Assembly: GCF_036227225.1 (NCBI RefSeq)
Contig: NZ_CP109444.1
Location: forward strand, 10,211,501-10,275,500
Direction of reading: 5' to 3'
DNA length: 64,000 nucleotides
Source: Streptomyces sp. NBC_01478
GTDB lineage: Bacteria; Actinomycetota; Actinomycetes; Streptomycetales; Streptomycetaceae
How positions within the stretch are numbered: the stretch's first letter is position 1; each line of letters starts with the position of its first letter. The position numbers were made by a program, and so were the translations under genes. The notes beneath the pieces are model-generated. The model was not told the origin of the DNA. It made no database searches and saw only the letters and a program-made list of their open reading frames with translations. Positions 3,742-27,735 of the stretch are shown piece after piece.

Positions 3742-4473
3742 TCACTCGGTGAACCGTTCGAGCAGAGCCTCCAGCCCGTCCGTCAGGCCCTTCGGTCCTC
3801 CCCGTTCGGCGAGGGCGGCGGCGGTCTCCCGCAGTCGGGGCAGTTCCTGCGGGGGCATGCGGTGCAGGCCGAGACGGAACGAGGGATCCTGCTCCTCCGG
3901 GCTGTCGACCATGGCCTGCAGTTCCATCGACACATAGCCGAGCACCCACGCGGTGAAGGCGCGGAAGACGGCGGCGGACCGGGTCTCGCCGAACCCGGCG
4001 TCCCGCAGCAGGGCGATCACCCGCTCGTGCTGCCGCAGCACGGCCGGCGGCCTCCGGGCCAGCGGAACGGCCAGCATGCGCGTGGCAAGCAGCGGCACCA
4101 CCTGGGGATGGGCCATGCACGCGTCGTACGTCGCCAGCGCGATCCGGTGCAACTCGGTGCGCCATTTCGGCGCCTCGGCACCGGTGGCGAGGCGTTCCTG
4201 CAGCTCCAGGTAGAGCGCTTCGACCAGGCCGTCCAACAGGGCGTCCTTGCTCGCCGCATATCGGTACAGCGCCATCGCCTCGACACCGAGCTCGGCACCC
4301 AGCCGCCGCATGCTCAGCGCCGACAGGCCCTCCCGGTCGACCAGCTCCAGGGCACTGGCCAGTACCCGTTCCCGGCTCAGCCGGCCGTACCGGCCGCGGT
4401 CGCCGGCCCGGCGTGCCGGACCCGCCCCGGCCCGGTCGTCCTTGTTCTGTGCGCGCGCCCGCTCCTTGGCCAT
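3742..4473 (-). CDS. TetR family transcriptional regulator
   Basis: A regulator of about 243 aa. The N-terminal helix-turn-helix reads LSMRRLGAELGVEAMALYRY and is followed by the typical ASKDALLDGLVEALY. The rest resembles the TetR-class C-terminal ligand-binding domain, with conserved helices but unknown ligand. ATG 4473 is preceded by GGTGGAGG. The gene is divergent from the polysaccharide-locus head gene (4644). The 170 bp between them hold one copy of the 20-bp element that recurs upstream of GH15 and galE. It is the best local candidate to bind those sites, though this is inference. It could instead control the neighbouring exporter gene, as many TetR proteins do. Confidence 0.9.
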   Translation of the reverse strand: MAKERARAQNKDDRAGAGPARRAGDRGRYGRLSRERVLASALELVDREGLSALSMRRLGAELGVEAMALYRYAASKDALLDGLVEALYLELQERLATGAEAPKWRTELHRIALATYDACMAHPQVVPLLATRMLAVPLARRPPAVLRQHERVIALLRDAGFGETRSAAVFRAFTAWVLGYVSMELQAMVDSPEEQDPSFRLGLHRMPPQELPRLRETAAALAERGGPKGLTDGLEALLERFTE

Positions 4474-4547
4474 GCCTCGCCTCCACCTGGTGGGCCGTGC
4501 CGGTGCCACTCGTGTTGACTCTATGCACCTACGGGGGCAAGGTGTAC

Positions 4548-4567
4548 GTATACGACGTAAATATACG
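4548..4567 (+). promoter_or_regulatory. Recurrent 20-bp element, copy A
   Basis: The sequence GTATACGACGTAAATATACG lies between the divergent tetR and aminotransferase-dehydratase genes, 75 bp from each start. It has outer inverted arms CGTATA/TATACG and a fixed CGTAA core, both shared with copies B, C and D. It is strikingly A/T-rich for this genome. It could be a regulator operator or part of a promoter. The rest of the 170-bp intergenic gap shows only a Shine-Dalgarno-like GGGGAGCGAG before 4644. Confidence 0.7.
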
Positions 4568-4643
4568 CCATTCGGACGTACGGCAGTGTGGACTGCCCCG
4601 CATGTCGTCACGCCCCCAGCAGCGCGGAACCGGGGAGCGAGCC

Positions 4644-7382: not shown

Positions 7383-8422
7383 TGTCCGCACCCGGCACAC
7401 GGCCGCAGTGGCCGCCCAGGCCCCGCCCCACAGCGGGCACCCGGCCACACCGTCTGCTGCGCCGGCTGCTGGTGCTCTGCCTGGCCACCGTGCTGGCCCT
7501 GCTCGGCCTGGGCGCGGGCGCCGTGTGGTGGGGCACCAACCACTACGGCGACCAGGTCACCCGCATCCCCGACGCCTTCCCCTCCGGACCGCGCCCGCCC
7601 GAGCCCACGGCCCATGACGGCGGTTCGACCTTCCTGCTGGCCGGGGTCGACAGCCGCTCCAGGCGGCCGACCACCGGGAGCGACGCCACGGCACGGCTGT
7701 GGACGTACGGCGCACAGCGCAGCGACACCCTGATGCTCGTGCACCTGAGCGCCGACGAGCGCACCGTCTACACGATGTCCATTCCGCGGGACAGCTGGGT
7801 GCCCATCGCGGGCCACGGCTCGGCGAAGGTCAACGCCGCGTTCTCCTGGGGCGGTCCACCCCTCCTCATCCAGACGGTGGAGCGGCTCACCGGGACCCGT
7901 GTCGACCACTTCGGTGTCATCGACTGGCACGGGTTCAAGGCCCTCACGGACGCCGTCGGCGGTGTGCCCATCACCGTTCCTGAGGACTCCTACGACCCCG
8001 TGCTGCAGGTGCACTTCACGGCCGGCACCCATGTCATGCACGGTGACGAGGCACTGGCGTACGTCCGTCAACGGCACGGTGTGCCCGGCGGCGAGCTGGA
8101 CCGGATCAAGCATCAGCAACAGTTCCTGCGCAGCCTGGCCGAGCGGCTGCGGGCCCAGGCCGGCCTCACCGATCCGCTCGGCACCGCCAGGATGCTCAAC
8201 GCGATGACGCGCACGGTCAGCGTGGACGACCGGATGTCCAACGGCGACCTGCGCGAACTCCTGCTCGGCCTGCGGCACCTGAACGCGTCGGACGCCCGGT
8301 TCACCACCGCGCCGATCGTCCGGTCGGAGCTGATCCACGGGCAGTACGCGCTGATCCTGGACCAGGTGAAGCTGCGGACGCTGTGGCACGCCGTCGAGGC
8401 GGGGGCGGAGCCGTCCTCATGA
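7382..8422 (+). CDS. LytR-CpsA-Psr (LCP) family phosphotransferase
   Basis: A 346-aa membrane-anchored enzyme with one N-terminal transmembrane segment (about residues 25-50) and an extracellular LCP domain. Conserved motifs are visible: RSDTLMLVHL, MSIPRDSWV (the arginine that binds the pyrophosphate), KVNAAFSWGG and AYVRQRHG. LCP proteins transfer undecaprenyl-pyrophosphate-linked glycans onto peptidoglycan or related wall polymers. Here that would be the last step for the polymer made by this locus. It overlaps the fusion gene stop (TGATG), so it is translationally coupled to it. Its 3' end overlaps the convergent phosphoglycosyl transferase gene by 6 bp. Confidence 0.92.
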   Translation: MSAPGTRPQWPPRPRPTAGTRPHRLLRRLLVLCLATVLALLGLGAGAVWWGTNHYGDQVTRIPDAFPSGPRPPEPTAHDGGSTFLLAGVDSRSRRPTTGSDATARLWTYGAQRSDTLMLVHLSADERTVYTMSIPRDSWVPIAGHGSAKVNAAFSWGGPPLLIQTVERLTGTRVDHFGVIDWHGFKALTDAVGGVPITVPEDSYDPVLQVHFTAGTHVMHGDEALAYVRQRHGVPGGELDRIKHQQQFLRSLAERLRAQAGLTDPLGTARMLNAMTRTVSVDDRMSNGDLRELLLGLRHLNASDARFTTAPIVRSELIHGQYALILDQVKLRTLWHAVEAGAEPSS

Positions 8423-9082
8423 CCGGCGGGGCGGGCGGAGCCAGCTGATGGACACCGCCCGCGCCACCAGCCGCAGGTCGGTGGTGAGCCGCCGGTCGCT
8501 CAGGTAGGCGAGGTCCAGGGCAAGCTTGGCGTGCAACTGCAGCGCCACATAACGCTCCTCGGCACGGCCGGTGTCGTCCAGCTCCCCGCCCCGCTCCGCC
8601 ACGTACAGCGCGCCGGGGCCGATGACGCCGGGCCGGACGTCCAGCAGCCGCAGCTCGTCCGGTGTGTAGCGGGGAAGGAACCGCTCGACCTCCGGACGCG
8701 GGCCGATGAGTGTCATGTCGCCGCGCAACAGATTGACCAGCTGCGGGAGTTCGTCAAGGCGTGTACAGCGCAACCACCGCCCGAAGGATGTGACGCGGGG
8801 ATCCGCGGCACCGCAGACCGCAGGACCCGCCCGGTCGGCGCCGACGGCCATCGAACGGAACTTGAGGATCCTGAACGGCCGTAGACCGCGGCCCACGCGC
8901 CACTGGCTGTACACGGCGGGACCGCGACTGGTGCACCGCACGAGGACGGCGAGCAGCGCCATGGGCACCAGCAGCGCCGGCAGCAGCACCAGCGCGATGA
9001 CGACATCCGCCGCGCGGCGCCGCCGGGTGTCCCCGCGCAGTGCCGGCACGGCCGTGTCCGGCCGGGCCCGATCGACGGCCAT
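8417..9082 (-). CDS. Monotopic phosphoglycosyl transferase (PglC/WcaJ-type sugar transferase)
   Basis: A 221-aa initiating enzyme that would transfer a sugar-1-phosphate from a UDP-sugar to undecaprenyl phosphate at the inner membrane face. One N-terminal hydrophobic segment (about residues 22-45) is followed by KFRSM, the catalytic D-E pair in TRLDELPQLVNLLRGDM and the IGPRPE motif. It is the short PglC-type form without the multi-span N-terminus of WbaP/WcaJ. That fits the bacillosamine-like sugar predicted from the 4644 gene. It is the last gene of the minus-strand operon, 2 bp after the PIG-L stop. Confidence 0.92.
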   Translation of the reverse strand: MAVDRARPDTAVPALRGDTRRRRAADVVIALVLLPALLVPMALLAVLVRCTSRGPAVYSQWRVGRGLRPFRILKFRSMAVGADRAGPAVCGAADPRVTSFGRWLRCTRLDELPQLVNLLRGDMTLIGPRPEVERFLPRYTPDELRLLDVRPGVIGPGALYVAERGGELDDTGRAEERYVALQLHAKLALDLAYLSDRRLTTDLRLVARAVSISWLRPPRRS

Positions 9083-9084
9083 GA

Positions 9085-9747
9085 TCAGTACACCTCCCGC
9101 AGTACCTGGAACGGCTCCGCGGCCGGGCGCCCGACCCGACTGCCCCAGTAGGCGGCGCGCTCCCGCAGCGCCCGCAGCGACCGCGGATGCGGATGGTCGC
9201 GCAGCTCGGTCTCGTAGCAACTCATCGCCTCCAGCTTGGTGTCGAGCGTGCGGGTGACGTCGATGTACAGCGACGGGGTGAACGGGCAGTCGGCGGACCA
9301 GGCCCATTCCGTGGACGACGGGGTCTCGAACACGGCGAACCGGCGCAGCCCCGGAAGCACATAGGGGCGGCAGGCGGTCCAGGCGGCGCGCGCCACGACC
9401 CCGTGATCGGCGTTCACGTCGCCGGGGAAGTGCGTGTACACCAGCTCCGGGCGTACCGCGTCGACCACCGCCTCCACTCGCTGGACCACGTCGATCAGCG
9501 GGAGTGCGTCCAGCCGCTGGTCGGGCAGTGGCCAGAGCTCCAGGGAGGTCAGACCGAGCACCTGCGCCGCACGCTGCGCCGCCTTGACGAGCTCCTCGGC
9601 CAGTCCCTCGCGGTACCGGCTCGAGGCTCCCTCGGTGAGGACGACGGCGTGCACGTGATCGCCGTCCCTGATGTGCCGGGCCAGGGTGGCGCCCGCGCCG
9701 AGCAGCTCGTCGTCGGGATGTGCGGCCAGGACCAGTACGGTGCTCAT
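9085..9747 (-). CDS. PIG-L family N-acetyl sugar deacetylase
   Basis: A 220-aa zinc hydrolase with the N-terminal AHPDDE motif (residues 9-14) and the downstream DVNADHGVV histidine segment that completes the metal site in PIG-L/MshB/BshB enzymes. It would remove an N-acetyl group from a sugar nucleotide or lipid-linked sugar. The gene lies between the formyltransferase (ATGA overlap) and the phosphoglycosyl transferase. Deacetylation may therefore expose an amine that is then formylated; this order is inference. The Asp-rich pocket is intact, so an active enzyme is expected. Confidence 0.9.
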   Translation of the reverse strand: MSTVLVLAAHPDDELLGAGATLARHIRDGDHVHAVVLTEGASSRYREGLAEELVKAAQRAAQVLGLTSLELWPLPDQRLDALPLIDVVQRVEAVVDAVRPELVYTHFPGDVNADHGVVARAAWTACRPYVLPGLRRFAVFETPSSTEWAWSADCPFTPSLYIDVTRTLDTKLEAMSCYETELRDHPHPRSLRALRERAAYWGSRVGRPAAEPFQVLREVY

Positions 9748-10784
9748 CGCACGGCCTCCTCGGGCCGCGGGCCTTCGCCCAGCACCCAGCGGGCCACCGC
9801 GGGCGGCACGGCCTCGAACCGCGCACCGGGCCGCAGACCGGCCCGCCGGGACCAGCGCGTCGCGGGCTGCGGCGGCCGGCCCTGACCGCTCATGTGGGTC
9901 ACCAGGACGCTGCCGCTCCGGGTGGCGACCCGCACACCGCACTCCTCCACGGCGAGCACCGAGCCCGACGGCCCGGCGGGCTCGTCACCGCGCGGCGGGC
10001 GGGTGCGCCAGACCATCACCCGCTCGCCGTCCAGCACGCTGAACGCTCCCGGGTACGGGGTGGTCAGGGCCCGCACCCAGTCGTGCACCGCGGGCGCCGG
10101 ACGGCCCCAGTCGATGACACCCATACCGGGCGTACGGCGAGGCAGCACGTCACCCTCGGCGGGATCCTGCGGAACACGCGGAGCGGTGCCTGTGAGCAGG
10201 CCGGGAAGGTGCGTGCGCAGCATGTCGGCGCCGGCCCGGGCCACCCGGTCGTACACGGTGCCGCAGGTGTCCTCCGGCCCGATGAGCACCGTGCGCCGGT
10301 CGACGATGTCACCGGTGTCCGCCCCGGGGTCGAGCATCATCATGGTGTTGCCGGTGAGGGTCTCACCCCGCAGAATCGCCCAGTTCACCGGAGCACGGCC
10401 GCGGTGGCGCGGCAGCAGGGAAGCGTGGAAGCCGACACAGCCGTGCCGTGGCACGGACAGCAGTTCGGGGCCGAGCAACCGGTTCCAGCCGACGACCACC
10501 AGCAGGTCCGGGTCCAGCGCACGTATCCGCGTCACCATGGCCGGTGTGTCGAGATCGGTCCCGCGCAGCACCGGAACGCCGGCGGCCCTGGCGGTCCCCG
10601 AGAGGTCTACGGCGCCCGACAGCCGGCGCCGGTCGTCGTCAGGCGGCGTGATCACCGCCGCGAGACGGACCAGCGGGGACTCCAGCAGGGCCGTCAGCGC
10701 TGCCTGCGCCTCGTGCACGGCCCCGATGAGGACCACGCGGCCAGGTCGGTGTACGGCGGAGGAGTGATCGGATGCTGTGCGCAT
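9744..10784 (-). CDS. Formyltransferase of the Fmt/ArnA type, likely sugar N-formyltransferase
   Basis: A 346-aa protein with a formyltransferase N-domain. HASLLPRHRGRAPVNWAI and ADTGDIV are close to ArnA/Fmt, which transfer formyl from N10-formyltetrahydrofolate. Catalytic His120 and Asp156 equivalents are present, but the Asn two residues before the His in Fmt is Gly118 here (GCVGFH). In this locus it most likely formylates the 4-amino sugar made by the 4644 fusion; tRNA formylation is unlikely. ATG 10784 lies inside the flippase gene. A GTG near 10736 is a possible shorter start. It overlaps PIG-L by ATGA. Confidence 0.85.
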   Translation of the reverse strand: MRTASDHSSAVHRPGRVVLIGAVHEAQAALTALLESPLVRLAAVITPPDDDRRRLSGAVDLSGTARAAGVPVLRGTDLDTPAMVTRIRALDPDLLVVVGWNRLLGPELLSVPRHGCVGFHASLLPRHRGRAPVNWAILRGETLTGNTMMMLDPGADTGDIVDRRTVLIGPEDTCGTVYDRVARAGADMLRTHLPGLLTGTAPRVPQDPAEGDVLPRRTPGMGVIDWGRPAPAVHDWVRALTTPYPGAFSVLDGERVMVWRTRPPRGDEPAGPSGSVLAVEECGVRVATRSGSVLVTHMSGQGRPPQPATRWSRRAGLRPGARFEAVPPAVARWVLGEGPRPEEAVR

Positions 10785-12078
10785 GACGGTGCCTTCCGGG
10801 TCGGGTGCCGCGCGCGGCCACGACACGGGCAAGGGTCACCAGCATCACCGTGGTGACCAGGTACGCGATGCTGGACGCCACGGCCGCGCCGACCGCCCCG
10901 TACCGGGGAATCAGCAGGACGTCCAGCAGGACGGTCACGGCGACGCCGACCCCCATGCCCCAGGAATTCACACCGGGCCGGCCGACGCCGAACAGATAGG
11001 CCGTGGACACGGCCGCCGCGCCCTCGACGGACAGTCCGACCAGCAGGATGCAGGCGGGGACGACCGCGTCCGTGAACGCCTGGCCGTACAGCAGCGGCAG
11101 CATGATCACCGACGCGCCCACCAGCGGCGGCACCAGCAAGGCGGTGAGCGCGGTGGCCCGCGGCATGATCCGGCGCACCTCCTCGCCGGCAAGCCGTGGA
11201 CCGTCCCGGGCGAACCGCGGGTAGAGCACGTAGTGCATCGCCACGGCGGGCAGCCGCATCAGCTCGGCGAACTTGGACGCGACGGCGTACACACCGAGCA
11301 CCGCCGGGCCGGACAGCGCGCCCACGATGACGAAGTCCAGCCGGAGGTTGACCAGCAGCAGCACGTTGCCCAGCTGGCCGCGGGCCCCGTAGCGCAGCAC
11401 CTCGGCGGCGAGCGGCGTCGAAGGCCGGCCCCGTCGGCGTCCGAATCCGGTGCGCACCAGCCGGCCCAGCGAGGTGACCGTGGCGGCCGTCCCCCCACCG
11501 AGCAGCCCGGCGACCACGGCGTCGGCGTCGCGCAACCCGGCGATCAGGGCCAGCCCGTAGGCGGGCAGGAAGAGCAGTTCCTCCGCGACGATGACCAGGT
11601 TGGCGCCCCGCATGTCGGCCTGTCCCTGGCAGCAGGCCTTGCCCCACACGGTGAGCAGCTGGGTGATCACGGTGACCGCCAGCAGGGCCAGCTGCCACCG
11701 CGGCACGGTGGTGAACAAGCCGTCGAGCAGCGGAACCGCGGCCAGCCACAGCAGGGCGCCCAGGGCCGAACCGGCGGCGGCGAGCAACGCCAGAGTCGGC
11801 CGCAGCCCGGGATCGTCCCGCCGCTCGCCCGCGAGGAAGTAGGCGCTCGCCAGCGGCAGCCCGCAGCTGACCACGACACCCGTCAGCCAGGGCAGCACCC
11901 GCAGCAGCGCGTACTCGCCGAGCACCTCGGCCCCGGACAGCCTGGCGACCAGAAGGCTGGCGACGAAGACCATGCACACCGCGACGCCCTGGGCCGCCAG
12001 GTTGCCGACCATGCTGCGGCGCCCCAGGGCCGGCGCCCGCTGCCCGGTCCCGTGGTCCTGCGCGCCGGTTCCGCTCAT
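10639..12078 (-). CDS. Wzx-like polysaccharide flippase (MOP superfamily)
   Basis: A membrane protein of 479 aa with about 12-14 hydrophobic segments starting at residue 22. It resembles Wzx/RfbX flippases, which turn undecaprenyl-linked repeat units to the outer leaflet. The last membrane segment ends near residue 420. The remaining 55-60 residues are Arg/Gly/Pro-rich and are encoded out of frame over the start of the formyltransferase gene (146-bp overlap). That tail may be a read-on after loss of an earlier stop. The gene is coupled to the upstream ligase gene by ATGA. Confidence 0.85.
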   Translation of the reverse strand: MSGTGAQDHGTGQRAPALGRRSMVGNLAAQGVAVCMVFVASLLVARLSGAEVLGEYALLRVLPWLTGVVVSCGLPLASAYFLAGERRDDPGLRPTLALLAAAGSALGALLWLAAVPLLDGLFTTVPRWQLALLAVTVITQLLTVWGKACCQGQADMRGANLVIVAEELLFLPAYGLALIAGLRDADAVVAGLLGGGTAATVTSLGRLVRTGFGRRRGRPSTPLAAEVLRYGARGQLGNVLLLVNLRLDFVIVGALSGPAVLGVYAVASKFAELMRLPAVAMHYVLYPRFARDGPRLAGEEVRRIMPRATALTALLVPPLVGASVIMLPLLYGQAFTDAVVPACILLVGLSVEGAAAVSTAYLFGVGRPGVNSWGMGVGVAVTVLLDVLLIPRYGAVGAAVASSIAYLVTTVMLVTLARVVAARGTRPGRHRHAHSIRSLLRRTPTWPRGPHRGRARGAGSADGPAGVPAGPSRGGDHAA

Positions 12079-13439
12079 GCCGGGTCTCCGCGTCCTCCGG
12101 CGGGGGACGGAACCGTGACCGCGCGGCCTTCAGCGGTCGGTCGGCCGTACGGATCGTCCGGGTCCGGTTCGGTCGCCAGCACCGCCACCATCGCAAGCAG
12201 CATCCACAGGAAGCGGAAGTGCAGCACCTCGTAGTAGGCGCCGGCCACCGCCAGGCCCAGAAGTGCCGCCACGAGTCCGGCCGGCCGGGGGACCTGGGCG
12301 GCGAAACCCGTACCGGGAGGCGCGCGCAGCACCCGGGAGGACCGCCAGGCCGCGGACATCAGCAGGGTCAGCAGCGCGACCACGCCCAGTGGGCCGCGTT
12401 CGACGAGGGCCGCCAGATAGTCGTCGTGGGCTTCCTTCGCGTACGGGAAATCCCGGTCCTGGAGGAGCTGTTTCGTCGTGCCCGGCCCCGAGCCGGTCAG
12501 CCACTGCCGGTCGTACAACTGGAGGCTCTCGCGGACCAGCACGCCGCGCTGCTCCGTGCTGGCCCCGCTGCGGCCCAGGGTGTTCACCAGCTCCGTCTGC
12601 TGGGACAGCAGCGCCCGGTCCTGCACATGGGTGAGGGGCGTCGTCGTGAGGGCGGTGCCGATCACCAGGGCGGGGGCCAGCACGATGGCAGCCGCGGCGA
12701 CCGGACCGGCCTTGCGGCAGATCGTGTACGCGGCGAGGAGGACCAGGCCGGCGCACAGGGCGAGGACGCCGCCGTTCGACTGGGTGAGCAGCAGCGCCCA
12801 GAGGAGCATCGTGTAGCCGTACCAGCGCAGCGCACGGGCGCGCGGGCGCTGGGCGGCGTACACCATGAAGAGCGACACCACCCAGTACGTGGCGGCGTAG
12901 TTGGGGTCGCCCAGGGTGAACAGTTTTCGGTCGCCCTCGGTCGGAGAGATCCCCTCGACAGCGGTGATGTGCGCGAGCGTGGCGCCCACCAGCACGGACG
13001 CCCAGACCACGGACGCGTAGGCGAACGCAGCCGTGAGCAGGCGGAGGACGCCCGGCCTGCGTGCGATGTTGTACAGCGCGACGCACCAGGCCAGCAGCAG
13101 AGACTCCTTGGTCAGGTTCACCAGCGAGGTGCCCGGCAGCGGCCCGGCCAGGCCCGCGACGGCACCGCTCAGCAGCAGGAGGGCGCCGGCCAGGCTGTAC
13201 GGGGCGCCGAGCCGCCGGCCGCAGGTTGCCGCCCACAGGAAGCTCACCAGCACCATCGCCACGGTGAGCAGGTCCACCGGTGAGCTGTTGCCCGGGCCGG
13301 CGGGGCGCAGGATCGGCTGGAACACCATCGCCGCGCAGGCGATGAACGTCACCGTGCGCAACAGCGTCTCGTGCCGGGCGCCGACCGGTGACGTCAGTGA
13401 GGTGCGCCCGGGCGTGAACCCGGCGGTCACTGTGGCCAT
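12075..13439 (-). CDS. O-antigen ligase/polymerase-like membrane protein (Wzy/WaaL type)
   Basis: A 454-aa polytopic protein with about 10-12 hydrophobic segments and one long extracytoplasmic loop (about residues 270-360) before the last spans. That is the layout of Wzy polymerases and WaaL ligases. The loop ends with a GSGPGTTKQ and HDDYLAALVERGPLGV stretch, typical of the family's H-x-x-x-x-x-x-x-E-x-G motif. It probably polymerises repeat units or transfers them. The start overlaps the kinase-like gene by 13 bp, and the stop overlaps the flippase start (ATGA). No lipid A exists in Streptomyces, so polymerisation is more likely than O-antigen ligation. Confidence 0.85.
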   Translation of the reverse strand: MATVTAGFTPGRTSLTSPVGARHETLLRTVTFIACAAMVFQPILRPAGPGNSSPVDLLTVAMVLVSFLWAATCGRRLGAPYSLAGALLLLSGAVAGLAGPLPGTSLVNLTKESLLLAWCVALYNIARRPGVLRLLTAAFAYASVVWASVLVGATLAHITAVEGISPTEGDRKLFTLGDPNYAATYWVVSLFMVYAAQRPRARALRWYGYTMLLWALLLTQSNGGVLALCAGLVLLAAYTICRKAGPVAAAAIVLAPALVIGTALTTTPLTHVQDRALLSQQTELVNTLGRSGASTEQRGVLVRESLQLYDRQWLTGSGPGTTKQLLQDRDFPYAKEAHDDYLAALVERGPLGVVALLTLLMSAAWRSSRVLRAPPGTGFAAQVPRPAGLVAALLGLAVAGAYYEVLHFRFLWMLLAMVAVLATEPDPDDPYGRPTAEGRAVTVPSPAGGRGDPA

Positions 13440-14707
13440 GACGTCTCCTCCTTCGAGGCCAGGCGGGTGAACGCCCGGAGCTGTGCGTGGGCGAATCCCG
13501 GATCCGTGGCCTCGGCGGCCACCGCGGCCAGCTCCGCGAGCACGGCGTCCCGCCCGCATGCGGCGGGCAGCCCGAGCCGTCGCAGCGGCGCACCGAGGAA
13601 GCCGCGTACCAGGCGCGGATACCACCCCGTGCCGTCCAGCGCGTAGGCCAGGGCCGCCCCGGGTCTCCCGGCGACCAGTCCCGGGTGGCCGGGGACCCGG
13701 TGGCCGGGCCTGGTGCGCCGGTCGAGGTATTCGCAGTAGGCGACGACGAACCGGGCAGGATCGGCCAGGGGGTTGCCGGCTGTTCGTGCGTGCTCCCAGT
13801 CGACGACACCGGAGACCCGGCCGCCCCGCACCAGGACGTTCCCGGGCCAGAAGTCGCCGTGCACGGCGGTTTGGGGAACTGCGTACCGTCGCAGCCGGCG
13901 GCGCAGCGCGTGCAGTTCCTCAAGGGCGCGCTCCGCGCTCGGAGCGCCGCTCAGCTGCCCGTCCAGGACCTCGGCGACGCGTGGCGCGAGGTCGAGCGGC
14001 TCGGTCTCGCCGGTCGTGGCCGACTGCAGCGCGGCCAGCCAGACCGCCGCCGCGGCGAAGTCCGCCTGCACCGGCGCGGGACGTGTGTGGTGTCGTGGAC
14101 GGTGATACGCGACCAGCATCGGCATTCCCGGAAGGGCGGTCGTCGCCAGCGCCGGCAGGCCCCGGTGCCGCAGCAGGCCCACGACGGTCGGCACGGCAGG
14201 ACGGGCTTCGCCCAGCGGCAGCGCCGCCAGGGCCTGCAGCCGGTCGGCCTCCCGGACGACGCCCGCCGCCGCTTCGGGCAGGGCCGGAACCTTCACGGCC
14301 AGGGTGGGCAGTTCCCCACCGGGCGGGAAGACCAACAGGATGAGACGGGCGTCCGGATCGTGGCTGTGGTCCAGCAGCAGCAGCGACCCGCTCGCGGAGA
14401 GCAGGCGGCGGACCGTGCTCCGCGCGGTACCGGATGGTTCGGCATCGCTGTCCGGAGCGGGAACGGTCAGCCGCGGCACGCAGCGCCGCACCGCCGGAAC
14501 CGTCAGTGCCGCCCGGGCGGCGGGGTAGAGCCACCCCGGGAGTGGCGGGGGCACGGCGAGCAGCGACTCGCGCACGTAGGACAGCACCGCCGTCCGGTCC
14601 TCGGCCACCACGATCGGGTGCCGTCGCGACGGCAGCGTCACGTACCGCCGCCCGGGGGGCAGCAGTTCGCGCCACATCCGGTCCCGTGGCGGCGCCGCGC
14701 TGCTCAT
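13427..14707 (-). CDS. APH-family (aminoglycoside phosphotransferase-like) kinase
   Basis: A 426-aa protein whose C-terminal half has the APH fold signatures: Brenner motif HGDFWPGNVLV and the metal-binding VVDWEHA. The first ~120 residues (including a Pro/Leu-rich stretch) are not recognised. APH-like kinases phosphorylate small molecules or sugars. Here it sits between an RtcB-like gene and the polymerase, coupled to both (ATGA and 13-bp overlap). A role in phosphorylating a glycan intermediate or an RNA/lipid-linked substrate is possible but unproven. Antibiotic resistance is unlikely from the context. Confidence 0.8.
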   Translation of the reverse strand: MSSAAPPRDRMWRELLPPGRRYVTLPSRRHPIVVAEDRTAVLSYVRESLLAVPPPLPGWLYPAARAALTVPAVRRCVPRLTVPAPDSDAEPSGTARSTVRRLLSASGSLLLLDHSHDPDARLILLVFPPGGELPTLAVKVPALPEAAAGVVREADRLQALAALPLGEARPAVPTVVGLLRHRGLPALATTALPGMPMLVAYHRPRHHTRPAPVQADFAAAAVWLAALQSATTGETEPLDLAPRVAEVLDGQLSGAPSAERALEELHALRRRLRRYAVPQTAVHGDFWPGNVLVRGGRVSGVVDWEHARTAGNPLADPARFVVAYCEYLDRRTRPGHRVPGHPGLVAGRPGAALAYALDGTGWYPRLVRGFLGAPLRRLGLPAACGRDAVLAELAAVAAEATDPGFAHAQLRAFTRLASKEETSWPQ

Positions 14708-16155
14708 GACAGCACCGCGAACGGTCTCAGTCTGGCGACCGGCCGGACCAGGCCGTTGCCCGAGAGGATGGCGACTGCCGCGTCGACCCCGGCGTCGTCC
14801 AGTTGGGGTACGTCGCGTGGCGCGGCCCGGTCGTAGGTGAAGCGCGTGGTGTGCCGGCGTTGGGGGTCCGGTCCGCTGCGGCCGCTGCGCTCGAACGCGC
14901 TGATGATGCTGCCGGTTCCGTGACAGGCGGTGTAGAGGCTGCGGTCCGCCTGCGGTGCCGGGACGCACAGGAACGACGAGGTGCGGTTGGTGCCGGGCAC
15001 CAGGAGCGGCTGGCCGGTGTGCGCGAAGGCGGGGTGACCCGCCATCATCTGCGGCGTCCAGGCGCGGGTTGCGTTGTGCCGGTGCACGAATGCCGGCTCG
15101 CCGCCGACGAGTTCCTCGTAGACGGAGTTGTGCGGGGAGTCCACCACGAGCCGCAGTCCGGCCCCGAAGGCCGCGCGGGCGAAGATCCGCAGTGAGGCGT
15201 AGGTGGCGAGGCGGTAGGCGAAGCCGTAGTTCATGGCGAGCCGCTGGGCGAGCAGCACCCGCCGGCCCTCGTCGCCCTCGATCGGCACGGAGGGACAACC
15301 GTGCCGGAAGTACGCCGCGTATCGTTGCCGTGCCTCGGCCGGGCTGCCCGCCGTCAGCAGGTGCGACAGCGGCTTCTGTACGGCCATCTCCGCCCGCAGC
15401 AGCCGGGAGGCGGCCTGCCGACGTGCGTACATCTCGCCGATCTGGCCGGTCAGCACACCACCGCCGTTGTGGAACTGCAGGGTCACCTGCCCCTGGTGCA
15501 CGCCGAGGCGGTCGGCGATGTCCCGCTCCAGCACCTCCTCGACCTCCTGGAGCTCCAGGAAGTGCGTACTGGGGCCGATGCTGCCGAAGCGCAGCCGGGC
15601 CAACTGCACACAGAGCCACGGCAGTTCCCGGCGGGCGCGCCGTGCTCCGCCGTACTCCTCGACCGGGAGCTGCCCGAACTCCTCGATCCGCTCGATGTCC
15701 GCGGTGTCGACGGCGAACCGCTCGGCGGCGAACCGGGCGCCTTCCACGGCGGCCCGCAGCACTTCGGCGCGGGACAGCTCGAACTTCCACCGTGGCGGGT
15801 CGGGGTAGCGCTGCCTGACCCGTCGGTAGAACTCCTCGACGGCGGTCGCGGAGGGCCGGGGCACATCCAGCACGGCGAGCGCCATGCCGCAGTTCAGGGC
15901 GGCGTCGGTGAGGGTGGGCCGGATCGCTCCCCGGGTGGCCACCGCGATGCTCGACGGCATCTCCGACTTGCCCTTGTGGCTGAAGTCCGGCAGCACGACC
16001 GGCGGCGCGGCCAGGTCCGCCGTCCCGGTGCCCCCGCGGACCCGGGCGAGCAGCGCCGGATCGGCCGGTGCCTCGGTACTGTCGAACACGGTGAGGTCGG
16101 CCCGGGACCCGGTGGCCGGGTCGCGGTGCTGTCCGCTGATGATGTCGACGCGCAC
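14704..16155 (-). CDS. Divergent RtcB-like RNA ligase homologue
   Basis: A 483-aa protein that follows the RtcB motif order: LPDFSHKGKSEMPSS, AALNCGMAL, GPSTHFLELQ, LQFHNGGG, AMNYGFAYR, DSPHNSVYEE, VHRHNATRAW, then GQPLLVPGTNRTSSF and ACHGTG. RtcB joins RNA ends using GTP and manganese. The guanylylated His (H412) and metal ligands C89, H198, H229 and H342 are kept. The metal Asp of DxxC (D-I-N-C in RtcB) is Ala86, and the Asn of GSGNH is Thr. It may therefore act on a different substrate or be inactive. The GTG start has GAGGAG upstream. It sits inside a polysaccharide operon, an unusual place for RNA repair. Confidence 0.82.
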   Translation of the reverse strand: MRVDIISGQHRDPATGSRADLTVFDSTEAPADPALLARVRGGTGTADLAAPPVVLPDFSHKGKSEMPSSIAVATRGAIRPTLTDAALNCGMALAVLDVPRPSATAVEEFYRRVRQRYPDPPRWKFELSRAEVLRAAVEGARFAAERFAVDTADIERIEEFGQLPVEEYGGARRARRELPWLCVQLARLRFGSIGPSTHFLELQEVEEVLERDIADRLGVHQGQVTLQFHNGGGVLTGQIGEMYARRQAASRLLRAEMAVQKPLSHLLTAGSPAEARQRYAAYFRHGCPSVPIEGDEGRRVLLAQRLAMNYGFAYRLATYASLRIFARAAFGAGLRLVVDSPHNSVYEELVGGEPAFVHRHNATRAWTPQMMAGHPAFAHTGQPLLVPGTNRTSSFLCVPAPQADRSLYTACHGTGSIISAFERSGRSGPDPQRRHTTRFTYDRAAPRDVPQLDDAGVDAAVAILSGNGLVRPVARLRPFAVLS

Positions 16156-16180: not shown

Positions 16181-17317
16181 TCAGAGACGTGACGACCGCG
16201 ATGGGGCGTAGGCGGCGGTCAACTCTTCGCCCAGCGCCTTGCTGTTGAAGCCGTCGCCGATCCGCATGTAGGCCTCCGCGGCCATCCGGGCGGCTTCCCG
16301 CGGGTGATCCAGCAGATGCCCGATCGCCAGGGCGAGCAGATCGGGCCGCTCCGGCGGTACGAGCAGCCCCGTACGGCCCGGCACCACGACGTCCGGCACC
16401 GAGTTCACGGCCGTGGCCACGACGGGAATCCCGCTCACCATCGCCTCGACGACGGCGACCGGTAGCCCCTCGTAACGGCTCGGAAGGGCGAACACGTCGA
16501 AGGCCGGCAGCAGGTCCGGGACGTCGGAGCGCTCTCCGACGAACACCACCCGCGCGCGCTCGCGTACGGCCAACTCCTGTACCCGCCCGGCCAGTTCGCC
16601 ACTGCCCACCCACACACCGGTGAGGCCGGGCCGGTGCAGTGCGGCCAGCGCGTGGACGAAGGTTTCGGGCGACTTCTGATAGGCGAGCCGTCCGACGGCC
16701 CCCACCACCGGGCCCGCGCCGGTGAGGCCGAGCGCCTCGCGGGCCCGCGCCCGGGTGGCCGGCGTCCTGGTCGGCGTGTCGTGGTCCACCGGAACGCCGA
16801 TGGTGCGGACGCGCTCCGGGGCCACCAGACCACGGCGCACCACCTCGACCGCCACGGCCGTGCCCACACACAGCGCCACGTCGGTGAAGCGCCCGACCCG
16901 CCGCTCGATCCGGATGTACGCTCCGCGCCGCACGGCGGACTGGAACTCGTGGTAGGGCAGCCCGTGGAACGTGTGGACGATACGGGGCACCCCGGTCCGG
17001 TGCGCCGCCAGCCGCCCCAGCGCGCCGGCCTTGGCGCTGTGGGTGTGCACGACGTCGAATCCGCACTGCGCGCAGAGGGCGGTCAGCCGCCGCAGCGCCC
17101 GCAGGTCGTCGCCGGGCGTGATCGGCGAGCGCAGCGCGGGCTCGAGGATCACCTCGAAGCCGGACTCGGCGGCGAGGTCGAGCAGCCGGTCGCCACGGCC
17201 GGTGATGAGCGTCGTGCGGTACGCGGCCGGGTCCAGGGCCTGTGCCCCGCGCAGCGCGACGATTCCGGCTCCGGCCTCGAACCGGGTGACCACGGTGCCC
17301 ACGTGCAGTCTGGTCAT
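16181..17317 (-). CDS. Glycosyltransferase family 4
   Basis: A 378-aa GT-B fold glycosyltransferase. The N-terminal domain carries VVTRFEAGAG and HTHSAKAGALGRLA. The C-terminal donor domain carries VGRLAYQKSPE, FALPSRYEGLPVAVVEAM (the E-x7-E motif) and GRTGLLVPP. It would add a sugar to the lipid-linked intermediate at the cytoplasmic face. It is the only classical glycosyltransferase in the locus, so the repeat unit is either short or needs enzymes encoded elsewhere. Its ATG overlaps the HprK-like stop. The RtcB-like gene follows after 25 bp. Confidence 0.93.
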   Translation of the reverse strand: MTRLHVGTVVTRFEAGAGIVALRGAQALDPAAYRTTLITGRGDRLLDLAAESGFEVILEPALRSPITPGDDLRALRRLTALCAQCGFDVVHTHSAKAGALGRLAAHRTGVPRIVHTFHGLPYHEFQSAVRRGAYIRIERRVGRFTDVALCVGTAVAVEVVRRGLVAPERVRTIGVPVDHDTPTRTPATRARAREALGLTGAGPVVGAVGRLAYQKSPETFVHALAALHRPGLTGVWVGSGELAGRVQELAVRERARVVFVGERSDVPDLLPAFDVFALPSRYEGLPVAVVEAMVSGIPVVATAVNSVPDVVVPGRTGLLVPPERPDLLALAIGHLLDHPREAARMAAEAYMRIGDGFNSKALGEELTAAYAPSRSSRL

Positions 17318-18309
17318 GGCATTGCCTCCGCTCGCTCGGAAGCCTCGGTGGCGAGGCGGTACAGCGCGGCGAGCCCTTCCTCCGGCCGGTCGCCGAGCAC
17401 GATCTCGTGTGCGGGCAGCCGCCGGGCGATCTCCAGCGCCGCCGCGCTGATCGGCGGGTGGGCAGGCCCCCTGCCGGTGCCCAGTGCGAGGGCGGCCGCG
17501 AAGGGCCAGTAGCGGCGCAGTTCCCCGGCCGTGTACGTGCCGGCGGCCAGGGCCCGCGCCGCCCGCGCGGGGTCGAGGGGATGCACCTCAGGACGGCCCG
17601 AGGCCTCTCTGCGCAGCAGCACGAGCCGGTTGGGACGCAAGGTGTCCAGCCGCCCCGGCAACGGGCACTCGGTGCGCCCGTGGGCCATGCGTCTGCCGCC
17701 GCCGTCCTCGACCCGCATCGGTTCGACCAGACCGTGGACGTCCCGTCCGTCGGTGACGCACAGGTTGTCGGAGCAGGCGTGTTCTCCGGCCGCTACGGCG
17801 CCCAGCAGCAGCGACGACCGACCCGTCCCGCCCGGCCCGGCCAGCAGGGGTACGGACGGGCCGATGGTCACCGCGGAGGCGTGCATCGGCACCCGGCCCC
17901 GGCACCCCGCCCACCACAGCGCCGGATATTGCAACAGTGTCGCCCGGACCAGCAGATGGAAACGGGAGCGCAGCAGCCGGGAGGCCAGGTGCTCCCGTAC
18001 CGGCGGGCGCCACCGGGCCTCCACCGTGAGCTGCCCGGCAGCGACCGTCAGCCGCAGGTCGAACCCGCTGCCGCAGGCGTTGCACAGCACCACCGCCCCG
18101 CCCCGGGCGTAGCCGCCGCGGGTGAGCGGCGCCCACCCGCGGACGTCGAAGGGTGTGTGTCGCGACTGCACTTCGACGTGCACGTCGGCGGCGGATCCGG
18201 CGGCTGGCTGCCAGGCCCGGGCGCCGCCTTCGGCCAGCAACCGGGAGAGGGGGGCCCAGCGGCAGTCGACCAGGAGCCGTTCCCCCGCCTGGATCAGTTC
18301 GGCGTGCAT
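17314..18309 (-). CDS. HPr kinase-like P-loop protein
   Basis: A 331-aa protein whose C-terminal half resembles the catalytic domain of HprK and related serine kinases: MHASAVTIG, the P-loop LLAGPGGTGRSSLL (Arg where Lys is usual), and CSDNLCV after it. The N-terminal part has no recognised domain. Such HprK-like proteins accompany peptide-modifying and polysaccharide loci in actinobacteria, with unknown targets. The P-loop Lys-to-Arg change may weaken ATP use. ATG 18309 has AGGAG upstream. The Wzz-like gene precedes it by 11 bp and the GT4 gene overlaps its stop. Confidence 0.72.
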   Translation of the reverse strand: MHAELIQAGERLLVDCRWAPLSRLLAEGGARAWQPAAGSAADVHVEVQSRHTPFDVRGWAPLTRGGYARGGAVVLCNACGSGFDLRLTVAAGQLTVEARWRPPVREHLASRLLRSRFHLLVRATLLQYPALWWAGCRGRVPMHASAVTIGPSVPLLAGPGGTGRSSLLLGAVAAGEHACSDNLCVTDGRDVHGLVEPMRVEDGGGRRMAHGRTECPLPGRLDTLRPNRLVLLRREASGRPEVHPLDPARAARALAAGTYTAGELRRYWPFAAALALGTGRGPAHPPISAAALEIARRLPAHEIVLGDRPEEGLAALYRLATEASERAEAMP

Positions 18310-18320
18310 CGGACACGCTC

Positions 18321-19784
18321 CTATCGAGCGGTTTCGGCGGAGCGACGGGGGCGCGTTTCGAAGCGCGGCCGACGGCGGCGGGCGGGATCGCCCAGCACAC
18401 CGATCACCGGCCAGCCGGTCGTGGCCACCAGGTTGCGCACCCTGCGCAGCTCGGCGTACGGCGGCAGATCGGGTTCCACCGCGACCAGGACGTGCCGTGC
18501 GCCGTCGGAGACGTCGTTCACCTGGTGCAGCGCGCGGACCCGGACGGAGGGGACGGCGGGCCGGGCCGCGGCGATCCGGGTGACATGGCGGTGGTCCGTC
18601 GGGGCAGTGTCCTCCCGGACTTCCGTGTCTTCCCGGACGGCGGTGGCCGCGCGTGCCGGGGTCAGCGTCCGGATGCGCCCCGGGCGCTCGTGCCGGTCGG
18701 CGCCGTCCGGCGGCGGTCCCGCGGTGTGCGGAACGCCGGGGCGGCCGGAGCGGAGCCCCGTGCCCGCGAACGGGCCGGGGGCGCCGACCACGGCGAGCCG
18801 TGCCTCGAGTTCCTCCCCGAGTTCGGCCAGGCGCTCGTCGGCGACCGCTCCGGTCAGTACCACCGTGCCCGCTCCGACGCGGGTGACGGCCCGGCGCAGC
18901 GCGACGGCGGTCTCGTCGTCGACCGTGGGACGCGTGCCGGGACCGCCGTCGCGGGTGCGGCCGTCGGCCACGGGAAGCCGGCCCAGCACCGGTGCGTCGA
19001 GCTCGCGGCCGAAGGCGGCCTGGCCGGCCACGTGCGGCCGGAGAGTCTCCAGCACCATGGCCGCCAGCAGCCCGGCCACCAGCCCGCCCACACCGGCCAG
19101 TGCCAGATCGGTGCGGGACAGCGGGGCCGCCGGCACCGCGTTTCCGGCCGGCGACAGCAGCGAGGCCGTGCTGTCGCCCAGGCCTGCGGCCTGCGCCGCG
19201 CGCAGCGAGCCCTGGATGTCGAGGATCTGCTGGTCCAGGGATCCGAGTTCGGCAGTGAGCCGTCCGGACTCTGCCGCGCTCTTCACGTTCGGCAGTTCTC
19301 CGGCGACGCGCACCCGCTCCGCCTGGAGCGCGTGTTCACGGTCCGTCAGCTGGGTGACCAACAGGTTTCCGGAGCCGTTGAAGAAGCCCACGAGCTGCTC
19401 CGACAGTGCGCCGGCCAGTTTCTCCGCCGTTCTGGGATTGCGGTCGGTGACCTTGACGGTGAACACCGCGGAACCGCCCAGCCGGGACACCGTGGTCTCG
19501 TGGGCCACCTGGGCCGCGGTGCGGTCGGTGAGCTTCGCCTGCTTCAAGGCCGCGTCGACGACCGAGCCACTGGTGGCGACGGCCTTCACACGGCTCAGCA
19601 TGGCGTTGGCCTGGACCTCCGTCGTGGGCAGTGTGGCGGATGCCTGGACGCGGGCCTTGGAGACGTAGGCGCGTCCGGTGGAGAGTCCGAAAGCACCCAC
19701 GACGAGCATCGGCAGGAGGACGAACAGCACGATCAGCCGCCAGTGTCCACCGACGGTGCGGCGCAGAGCTTCGTTGAATTCCAT
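18321..19784 (-). CDS. Wzz/BY-kinase-like chain-length protein without Walker A
   Basis: A 487-aa protein with an N-terminal Wzz domain (first membrane segment about residues 17-38), a coiled extracytoplasmic region with long Ala/Leu/Glu helices, and a second membrane segment near 275-295. The remaining ~190 residues sit where bacterial tyrosine kinases carry their P-loop domain. Here I see a VLTGAVADERL stretch, a long disordered Arg/Pro-rich linker and VLVAVEPDLPP, but no Walker A. It may set polymer length without kinase activity. It is the first gene of the minus-strand operon; ATG 19784 has GAGGA upstream. A 57-bp divergent gap separates it from the lipoprotein gene. Confidence 0.82.
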   Translation of the reverse strand: MEFNEALRRTVGGHWRLIVLFVLLPMLVVGAFGLSTGRAYVSKARVQASATLPTTEVQANAMLSRVKAVATSGSVVDAALKQAKLTDRTAAQVAHETTVSRLGGSAVFTVKVTDRNPRTAEKLAGALSEQLVGFFNGSGNLLVTQLTDREHALQAERVRVAGELPNVKSAAESGRLTAELGSLDQQILDIQGSLRAAQAAGLGDSTASLLSPAGNAVPAAPLSRTDLALAGVGGLVAGLLAAMVLETLRPHVAGQAAFGRELDAPVLGRLPVADGRTRDGGPGTRPTVDDETAVALRRAVTRVGAGTVVLTGAVADERLAELGEELEARLAVVGAPGPFAGTGLRSGRPGVPHTAGPPPDGADRHERPGRIRTLTPARAATAVREDTEVREDTAPTDHRHVTRIAAARPAVPSVRVRALHQVNDVSDGARHVLVAVEPDLPPYAELRRVRNLVATTGWPVIGVLGDPARRRRPRFETRPRRSAETAR

Positions 19785-19841: not shown

Positions 19842-20645
19842 GTGCGTAGAGGTTCCGGGATCCTCGTGGTCGGGCTGCTGCTGTCGGCGGCGCTCTCCTG
19901 CGGTCGGGAGGTCCCCGAGCCTGCACCGCCGTTCCTCTCCGTAGCGCTCAACACCACGGATCCGGCCACCGTGCGCTACGGCTACTCGCTGATCGACGTC
20001 ACGCCGGATCGCGTCTCGGAGGTCACCACGCGTCAGCGCGCTCTGGTGTGGCTCGGCGGGTACGACAAGGTGCGCTGCGCCTGGACCTGGAGCGATGCGG
20101 AGGTCAGGATGCGGTTCGCGCGGTATGGGCTGGCCCGCTCGCCCCGAGTTGCCGGATATTTCGTGGCGGACGAGCCCAACACCGACCTCAACTGCCCCCG
20201 GGCCGCGGCCGAGGTGCGCAAGCGGTCGGCGCTCGTACGCTCCCTCGATCCGGACACCGACCACTTCACGGTGGTGAACGTGGACGATCCCGACCAGTTC
20301 GCGGCCTTCCGCGGCGCGACGGATGTGATGAGCGTCAACGTCTATCCCTGTCTGGCTGCCAAGCCCTGTGACTGGTCGCGGATCCCGCAGGCGCTGGCGC
20401 GGCTGCGCGAGGCGGGCGTCACGCGCTACATGGGCATGCTCCAGGTGTTCTCCTTCGAGCAGTGGCGCTGGCCCACAGCTGCCGAGCTGACCGGCATGAT
20501 CGCGCAGTGGCAGCGCTCCGACTGGCTGGGGCAGCTGACGTTCTCCTGGGAGTACAAGGGCAGCAGGCTGGCCGACCACCCGGAGCTGCTCCGCGTGCTG
20601 AAGAGGCTCAACGACGCACCGCACGAGCTGTTCCCGCTTCCCTGA
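19842..20645 (+). CDS. Secreted glycosidase-like lipoprotein
   Basis: A 267-aa protein that starts at GTG 19842 (AGGA seven bases upstream). It has an N-terminal lipoprotein-type signal peptide (GILVVGLLLSAALSC), with a degenerate A-L-S-C lipobox. The mature part resembles a small TIM-barrel glycoside hydrolase: VADEPNTD and VNVYPCLAAKPCDW are strand-end stretches with acidic residues, and FSWEYKGS is near the end. The family is not recognised with certainty. It is divergent from the Wzz-like gene and ends just before regulatory element B. A role in trimming the exported polymer is plausible. Confidence 0.7.
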   Translation: MRRGSGILVVGLLLSAALSCGREVPEPAPPFLSVALNTTDPATVRYGYSLIDVTPDRVSEVTTRQRALVWLGGYDKVRCAWTWSDAEVRMRFARYGLARSPRVAGYFVADEPNTDLNCPRAAAEVRKRSALVRSLDPDTDHFTVVNVDDPDQFAAFRGATDVMSVNVYPCLAAKPCDWSRIPQALARLREAGVTRYMGMLQVFSFEQWRWPTAAELTGMIAQWQRSDWLGQLTFSWEYKGSRLADHPELLRVLKRLNDAPHELFPLP

Positions 20646-27600: not shown

Positions 27601-27735
27601 CACGGCCCAGAGTGGTGTGCGCGTCTCCGGGATGGACATGTACAGGCCGGTGACGACCACGATCAGCGTGATGTATACGGCCATCAACCGGTGCGCCAGA
27701 TGCAAGGGCGAGCGCCTCCCCGATTCGGAGGTCAC
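24601..27735 (-). CDS. Membrane c-di-GMP enzyme: multi-span sensor, PAS, GGDEF and EAL
   Basis: A 1044-aa protein. About ten membrane segments fill the first ~330 residues, followed by a GAF-like stretch, a PAS domain (around 490-600), a diguanylate cyclase domain with intact RLGGDEFAVL, and a phosphodiesterase domain with VGFEALARWPH and DDFGTGYSSLRYL. Both catalytic signatures look complete, so it could make and break cyclic di-GMP; which activity wins cannot be read. It lies between the alpha-oxoamine synthase gene and galE, all on the minus strand. Cyclic di-GMP controls development and matrix production in Streptomyces. The GTG 27735 start has a weak ribosome site; ATG 27684 is an alternative. 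Confidence 0.93.
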   Translation of the reverse strand: MTSESGRRSPLHLAHRLMAVYITLIVVVTGLYMSIPETRTPLWAVIGLSGVAAVLTGVHIHRPAQRWPWWALAGGLLTFIAGDTSYNVLEEYFHASNPFPSPADACYLATYPLFAAGLFGLVRYRWADRDLPSLLDALIITAGLALPVWVYLVQPLTQVEGLTWQQRAISIAYPLGDVLVLAMLARLLTPSPVSGRNRAVQLLVLGTLTLLGFDIAYGILQLNDMWQAGTLVDSGWIVFYTAWGLAALHPSMAELTAPESPPESALPPQRWRLLLLTGATLIAPTILLYEGHAGNVRDATVLAVFSCLLFLLVILRLAGMVVAHRKAVTRELALRAATASLVAAARPQEIEQTCASAVSALFGPGIEHSSTVLSAEHAQDLYALLDRSLGRDGAGRTALALHRTLMVPTAALGPETAGGLDGLPTALVCPMVQPGRPAGGELPGVLLAAGPERRLGEMRGTLEILASHAGLATERIALRQEISRKESEAYFRTLVRNASDVILIVDDDWTVRYASPSAEAVFGSARLSGTALRDLLDPRDRERADRTLEDLCGDRREEAHDHWWVLRDSARIEVEVSCRDLRQDKTVGGLVVTLRDVTEQRQLEHELTQRAFHDSLTGLPNRTLLLERTERALLRGRREPALTCLLFVDLDDFKIVNDTLGHSVGDRLLAAVGARLSETLRRTDTAARLGGDEFAVLMEDARQPLDAELLAAQVIQTLNRPFHLADDSVSVSASVGVATAMDSTDAEDLLAHADLALYAAKAAGKRQWRSFRPELRERMAERHDLRARLDTAIAREEFALRYQPVVDITADEVVGFEALARWPHARRGLVPPQQFIPLAEETGHITPLGAWVLRNATSDMARLQHGSQCATPPYISVNVSARQWRDTGFLDEVCRALDTPGLVPGSLQLELTESVLMQRDDQIDALTRELKDLGVRIAVDDFGTGYSSLRYLREFPIDVLKIDKTFIDDIPQDPRQVALVEGIVRLADTLGLQVIAEGIEEPAQRELLAGIGCRFGQGYLFARPMTVEQGEQVLRRHNQRHHGR

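Follow-up and report, generated by a model that had tools for sequence, protein, structure and literature searches.

The gene at positions 14704 to 16155 of the stretch studied here (the window: 64,000 nucleotides of Streptomyces sp. NBC_01478, contig NZ_CP109444.1, positions 10,211,501 to 10,275,500) is predicted to encode a deeply diverged RtcB paralog that has been recruited into an extracellular-polysaccharide system. Judging from alignments, its active site is remodelled rather than short of one ligand, and the protein is very probably not an RNA ligase. We tentatively propose that this branch of the RtcB fold is a carbohydrate-pathway enzyme, in which chemistry through a nucleoside monophosphate (NMP) bound to a histidine activates or joins sugar or polyol phosphates from a linked kinase; the resulting exopolysaccharide, in Actinomycetota, Chloroflexota, Dormibacterota, and relatives, would be nucleotide-activated or contain phosphodiesters. 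We regard this proposal as a serious possibility that falls a little short of being probable.

An open reading frame is present where an earlier, sequence-only reading of the window had placed it, and the RtcB homology claimed there holds: the protein matches PF01139 in a profile search (E 6e-44, 151 bits vs a gathering cut-off of 27) and is matched by Pyrococcus horikoshii RtcB at E 2e-28. By both PF01139 and fold, it is a member of the RtcB superfamily.

14704..16155, minus strand: RtcB-like protein, 483 aa, GTG start

An ordinary RtcB is also encoded, separately, in the same genome (locus L021), and no match to PF01951 (Archease) was found in that genome. The names given in sources for the listed family members are RtcB names ("RtcB family protein", "tRNA-splicing ligase RtcB" etc.).

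Residues are numbered after P. horikoshii RtcB, with which the window protein was aligned along with 46 canonical RtcBs (L021, 30 loci from the search listing, and 15 regions picked for spread) and members of its own family. The family set (249 distinct sequences, reduced from 255 by removing identical core sequences) represents nearer relatives, since the protein searches behind it list the best 120 of 1476 and the best 120 of 1362 matches. As the sequence-only reading had stated, the window protein retains the guanylylated histidine (His404, here H412) and most metal ligands (Cys98, His203, His234, and His329, here C89, H198, H229, and H342), and has Ala86 at the Asp of the DxxC motif (Asp95) and Thr197 for the Asn of GSGNH (Asn202). 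That reading omitted further changes: Gly233 at Arg238, His360-Asn361 at Lys351-Gly352, Arg391 at Gly382, and Ser416 at Arg408, as well as the loss of the Tyr451 loop and of the C-terminal Lys480. Codons of five of these positions are as follows.

15898..15900, minus strand: Ala86, in the column of Asp95 (Mn2 ligand), from the alignment
15889..15891, minus strand: Cys89, equivalent to Cys98, ligand of both Mn, kept in 249/249
15565..15567, minus strand: Thr197, in the column of Asn202 (Thr in 154 and Asn in 95 of 249)
15076..15078, minus strand: His360, in the column of Lys351 (His in 247 and Tyr in 2 of 249; Lys in 46/46 canonical)
14920..14922, minus strand: His412, in the column of the guanylylated His404, kept in 249/249

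The same pattern extends across the family. Asp65, Cys98, His203, Phe204, His234, His329, Ser385, and His404 are invariant in all 249 sequences and Glu206 is kept in 248. The Asp95 column holds Ala (152), Ser (93), Gly (3), or a gap (1), and Asp in none. The Arg238 column is Gly throughout, the Gly352 column is Asn in 247 and Lys in 2, the Gly382 column is Arg in 242, and the Arg408 column is Ser in 159 and Thr in 90. The Tyr451 loop is gone across the family, and V, I, D, A, or E fills its column in 249 of the 255 rows that preceded de-duplication. Nor is the C-terminal Lys retained: the window protein ends in AVLS, 140 family rows include endings of VLT (84), VLS (43), and VLN (6), and 243 of 249 sequences finish with T, N, S, or H, whereas none finishes with Gly. 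Canonical RtcBs read D-D-C-N-H-(E/D)-H-R-H-K-H-R at the twelve positions compared in 46 of 46, with D95, N202, R238, K351, and R408 all kept, and have Lys next to last in 40 of 46 (four more have KG slightly earlier). Because the changed residues are held by 249 family sequences and by none of the 46 canonical RtcBs, the pattern is beyond chance. Of the features of an RNA ligase, the family retains His404, Asp65, and the first metal site (Cys98, His234, and His329) in every sequence and fails in three: a second metal site without its Asp, Arg238, and the C-terminal Lys480.

In a tree of 27 of the 249 family rows and 26 of 47 canonical rows, the family rows form one side of a single branch (Shimodaira–Hasegawa-like approximate likelihood ratio test, SH-aLRT, 100; length of 3.53 changes per column). 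The ratio of nonsynonymous to synonymous substitution rates (dN/dS) is 0.15–0.19 relative to three Streptomyces orthologs and 0.26–0.47 relative to four more distant relatives; comparison of these sequences thus shows the gene to be under purifying selection. The 249 sequences and these ratios exclude a chance local mutation or a pseudogene. Distribution is patchy: among 149 genomes from the window's phylum 4 carry the gene, and among 295 from its genus 2 do (the window's genome is counted in both). Loci in the genome collection are recorded as coming from Actinomycetota, Chloroflexota, Dormibacterota, and a metagenome-assembled genome labelled Gemmatimonadetes. The plasmid collection yielded no match at E 1e-20 and 16 pattern matches among viral contigs included no confirmed relative, so carriage as plasmid or phage cargo was set aside. 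No PADLOC defence model matched the three proteins submitted.

Published work on RtcB, as far as the excerpts on which we draw go, places these changes in the catalytic cycle. One Mn sits at the alpha-phosphate and is bound by Cys98, His234, and His329, and the other sits at the gamma-phosphate and is bound by Asp95, Cys98, and His203 (PMC10630183). Each of D65A, D95A, N202A, H203A, F204A, E206A, H404A, and K480A inactivates P. horikoshii RtcB alone; Archease rescues F204A, E206A (both residues contact guanine), and K480A, and with Archease D95A regains guanylylation of the RNA 3'-phosphate and not ligation (PMC3973293). The D119A variant of human RTCB retains weak guanylylation but fails to ligate, and D119, N354, and K375, equated with Asp95, Asn330, and Lys351, bind the phosphate remaining from the leaving group (PMC10944509). 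The arginine of the Arg238 column (Arg237/Arg263) contacts the RNA backbone, and R263A is inactive (PMC12135372). For Arg408, the passages of these four papers give no function. Since D95A guanylylates without ligating when Archease is present, loss of this Asp can, on the published excerpts, stop the enzyme after NMP transfer. Given these roles, the family is altered where mutation stops RNA ligation, and the part that handles the alpha-phosphate is untouched. The family-wide changes support the view that the protein is unlikely to ligate RNA.

The sequence-only reading had allowed that D84 might supply the missing Asp. Asp occupies the D84 column in 151 of 249 family sequences, with Asp84-Ala86 paired in 147, Ser-Ser in 78, and Gly, Ala, or Cys with Ser in 15; thus, in 93 of 249 the Asp95 column is Ser and the D84 column is Ser, Gly, Ala, or Cys, which leaves no Asp at either. 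In the tree, Asp at 84 arises by one change and marks only the subclade to which the window belongs (8 of 27 rows); Thr replaces Asn202 there, and rows outside of it mostly read x-Ser-Asn at columns 84, Asp95, and Asn202. The joint change of the three columns fits a local rearrangement, and residues 83–89 form a loop in the predicted model of the protein. Because the remaining members have no Asp at either column, a shifted Asp is no general explanation. D84 as the source of the Asp is therefore rejected for the family as a whole, and in the window's subclade it could stand in.

The gene lies within a cluster with the hallmarks of polysaccharide synthesis. Features of the window that surround it are as follows.

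4413..5918, plus strand: DegT-type sugar aminotransferase, start uncertain (PF01041, E 3e-104)
5916..7382, plus strand: CapD/PseB-like nucleotide-sugar 4,6-dehydratase (PF02719, E 2e-99)
8417..9202, minus strand: initiating sugar-phosphate transferase (PGT), start uncertain (PF02397)
9085..9750, minus strand: PIG-L type deacetylase (PF02585)
9744..10832, minus strand: sugar formyltransferase, start uncertain, overlapping the called flippase gene (PF00551/PF02911)
10639..12078, minus strand: Wzx-type flippase (PF01943/PF13440)
12075..13430, minus strand: Wzy/O-antigen-ligase-type polymerase, start uncertain (PF04932)
13427..14707, minus strand: APH-fold kinase with an extra N-terminal segment (PF01636, E 1e-19)
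16181..17317, minus strand: GT4 glycosyltransferase (PF13692/PF00534), in 19 of 22 relatives' loci
17314..18309, minus strand: HprK-like P-loop protein (HPRK), present in 18 of 22 loci, with a GPGGxGK/R-S motif and low-scoring matches to ScmC and HprK-related profiles
18321..19784, minus strand: Wzz-like chain-length regulator (TIGR01006, E 1e-7, under its cut-off)
19842..20645, plus strand: secreted lipoprotein-like protein, start uncertain, homologs in 10 of 22 loci

PGT, flippase, polymerase, and chain-length regulator (the Wzz-like match being below its cut-off) occur together, as in a Wzx/Wzy-dependent cluster. With the formyltransferase and deacetylase, the window likely encodes a route to a 4-amino-4,6-dideoxysugar. 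The lipoprotein-like protein has no match in Pfam and is, as a guess, perhaps a glycosidase of the polymer. Near the cluster, a PAS-GGDEF-EAL protein (24601–27735) raises the possibility of control of the polymer by cyclic di-GMP. The stop of the RtcB-like gene and the start of the APH gene overlap as ATGA at 14707–14704, bearing out the translational coupling claimed earlier. The gene order is GT4, RtcB-like, APH, and Wzy, and the kinase therefore sits between the RtcB-like gene and the polymerase.

This context recurs across phyla. Neighbors in the window served as tblastn queries against 22 distinct loci of the family (L077, the same place as L001, and L024–L026, the same as L071–L073, were dropped from the counts, and L020 was dropped because it reads as an ordinary archaeal RtcB); the loci lean to near relatives because they were found with patterns from the window's protein. 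GT4 and Wzy were each found in 19 of the 22, HPRK and APH in 18, the flippase, CapD-like dehydratase, and DegT aminotransferase in 17, PGT in 16, and Wzz in 15. Wherever found, GT4, Wzy, HPRK, APH, flippase, PGT, and Wzz are on the same strand as the RtcB-like gene. In L005, GT4 is represented by a distant match (30% identity). Even the member furthest from the window's protein, L019 (45% identical), has a relative of HPRK (36%) and a Polysacc_synt flippase adjacent to it. Within the window's phylum, 2 of 149 genomes encode HPRK, and these two belong to the four that have an RtcB-like gene. The survey thus upholds the polysaccharide-operon context with a kinase that had been noticed in a single sequence. 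We regard the cluster as a recurrent bacterial system for exopolysaccharide, apparently not yet described, with a putative phosphorylation step.

In 17 of 19 relatives, the RtcB-like gene has a stop that overlaps a possible start (12 ATGA, 1 GTGA, 3 TGATG, and 1 TAATG; the exceptions are L015 and L016), and the gene that follows is not always APH. The terminal Thr/Ser/Asn codon of the RtcB-like gene may be dictated by the start that overlaps its stop. Three loci with a Wzy homolog (L082–L084; 30–32% identical) and no RtcB-like gene are, in the part read, also without HPRK and APH. L083 comes nearest and has most of the remaining cluster, with Wzz, DegT, Wzy, GT4, flippase (50%), PIG-L, and PGT in the 15 of 27 kb read, and L082 and L084 share less of it. 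L083 offers a natural comparison for what HPRK, the RtcB-like protein, and APH contribute together. In 5 of 22 loci, the cluster includes a protein with metallo-beta-lactamase (MBL) fold and Rieske [2Fe-2S] domains (L013:19245-20843, and in L014, L016, L017, and L018). The pairing is reminiscent of CMP-sialic acid hydroxylase, and an activated sugar may therefore be hydroxylated.

Of 20 aligned rows of APH, 19 retain the HGDxxxxN motif, the metal Asp, and the ATP Lys (the L077 row duplicates L001, and the L073 gene is interrupted). A separate protein of 136–137 aa lies between RtcB-like and APH genes in two loci (L008:10949-11362 and L009:11392-11802) and resembles part of the N-terminal segment of the window's APH (E 6e-8 and 5e-7 over 37 residues). 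HPRK has a GPGGxGK(S/T) motif; profiles of ScmC match 17 of 17 members and of HprK-related kinase A 15 of 17, with E up to 1, and a search of PDB returned HPr kinase at E 0.056 among other P-loop proteins. Because the profile matches are far below cut-offs and the PDB match is at E 0.056, the HprK-like label is kept only as a lead.

These observations suggest a scheme that would correspond to the second step of RtcB without the third. A nucleotide, which need not be GTP, would be bound by the remaining Mn and attacked at its alpha-phosphate by the conserved His. The NMP would then move onto a phosphate carried by a small molecule, a sugar, or a lipid-linked glycan; a neighboring kinase would have made this acceptor phosphate, and a sugar or polyol is a candidate for its carrier. 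The product would be a building block activated with a nucleoside diphosphate or a nucleotide-capped phosphate for the polymer. That the protein carries out this nucleotidyl transfer, from His-NMP to a phosphate from the linked kinase, is a plausible reading of the alignments and the gene context, to which we give less than even confidence.

A protein that does not catalyze and instead organizes or regulates the polysaccharide machinery or its HprK-like partner would be in keeping with alterations at D95, N202, and K480, where Ala inactivates P. horikoshii RtcB (excerpts of PMC3973293). However, the nucleophile and metal ligands are invariant in 249 of 249, and where basic residues have gone, other polar residues that hardly vary have taken over (His360, Asn361, Arg391, and Ser/Thr416), which is not drift. 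We prefer nucleotidyl transfer because catalytic residues are invariant and lost ones are replaced in this manner. The purely structural role that the sequence-only reading had entertained is weakened by the same invariance (nucleophile, first-site ligands, D65, F204, and S385 in 249/249; E206 in 248/249) and by the low dN/dS, and a scaffold now appears rather unlikely.

A full RtcB cycle on glycans is also conceivable. Sugar phosphate made by APH or the HprK-like protein would be activated and attacked by a sugar hydroxyl, leaving a phosphodiester in or on the repeat unit. Such chemistry is the same as the last two steps of RtcB, kinase genes belong to the cluster, and among the glycosyltransferases tested GT4 alone recurs beside PGT and Wzy, leaving room for a putative non-glycosidic linkage. 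But a change of the Asp abolishes ligation in both published enzymes (PMC3973293 and PMC10944509), and Arg238, the residue for the RNA acceptor, is always Gly. As loss of the Asp stops both enzymes before joining, nucleotidyl transfer is preferred, and a phosphodiester-forming ligase is unlikely.

Alternatively, the His and the first Mn could hydrolyze a phosphate or cyclic phosphate ester during polymer assembly without a nucleotide, comparable to hydrolysis of cyclic phosphate by RtcB. The first metal site is fully retained and contacts to the gamma-phosphate and guanine are partly lost, as a single-metal phosphohydrolase or phosphodiesterase would allow, but such an enzyme would have no need of the guanine contacts F204 and E206 that the family keeps, and we consider it quite unlikely. 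An ordinary RNA ligase that lies in the operon by chance and draws its metal Asp from D84 is highly improbable: PF01139 membership, the RtcB fold, and the Asp in 151 of 249 at the D84 column speak for it, but 93 of 249 combine Ser in the Asp95 column with a residue other than Asp at 84, the RNA-binding Arg is lost in every member, the genome already has an ordinary RtcB, and the gene associates with polymer genes.

Several points weigh against nucleotidyl transfer as proposed here. D95, K351, and N202 help position the triphosphate, and their loss may mean that no nucleoside triphosphate is used. The guanine pocket has lost Y451 and K480, although it keeps F204, E206, and S385. In the P. horikoshii work (PMC3973293), the activity of D95A and K480A depends on Archease, and the window's genome is one in which PF01951 has no match. 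Constraint on the C-terminal residue may come from gene overlap rather than catalysis. The partners also vary. HPRK was not found in L007, L012, L072, and L073 (which have 0.65, 1.25, 3.6, and 4.3 kb of upstream sequence), and has no match genome-wide in the genomes of the latter two (G052 and G064; 82% and 62% complete); in L073, other genes come after GT4. APH was not found in 4 of 22 loci (L013, L014, L015, and L019) and thus cannot be the sole supplier of substrate. In HPRK, the P-loop Lys is Arg in the window (GPGGTGRSS) and its nearest relatives (L001–L006), with more distant members keeping Lys, and its profile scores are far under curated cut-offs, which makes the HprK-like label weak. 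Comparison loci L082–L084 are few and were read in part. Finally, the activity, ligand, and product of the RtcB-like protein are all predictions.

Research on RtcB has concerned its role as a ligase in RNA repair and splicing, and to our knowledge its fold has so far been known only in nucleic-acid ligases or capping enzymes. A search of the literature, most subscription literature being outside its reach, turned up no paper that places a relative of RtcB in the synthesis of polysaccharides. By descent the family is a member of the RtcB superfamily; if the carbohydrate reaction is true, it would be categorically new in function. Should the family act on sugar or polyol phosphates, the present names of its proteins would be wrong, a second chemistry would be added to the RtcB fold, and natural replacements of Asp95 would become available for probing each metal site of RtcB.

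Among known systems, the reported precedent is the RtcB3-type capping paralog of Myxococcus xanthus, which is said to make an NMP-capped phosphate; unlike the role proposed here, it reportedly acts on DNA or RNA ends. LicA kinase and LicC cytidylyltransferase cooperate in phosphocholine decoration, and by analogy an APH-fold kinase is likewise beside a proposed nucleotidyl-transfer enzyme in an envelope-polymer locus, although the fold of LicC is unrelated to RtcB. HPr kinase and HprK-related kinases (PDB 1jb1; TIGR04352, ScmC TIGR04249) share with HPRK the P-loop region and its surroundings, but the similarity is weak, with scores under the cut-offs and no better than those of other P-loop ATPases, and the window's copy has Arg for Lys. 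Relative to the 3'-phosphate RNA ligase RtcB/RTCB (PF01139; PDB 4dwq, 2epg, 7p3b), the window's family is without Asp95, Arg238, Lys351, Arg408, Tyr451, and Lys480, forms its own clade, and resides in a polysaccharide cluster.

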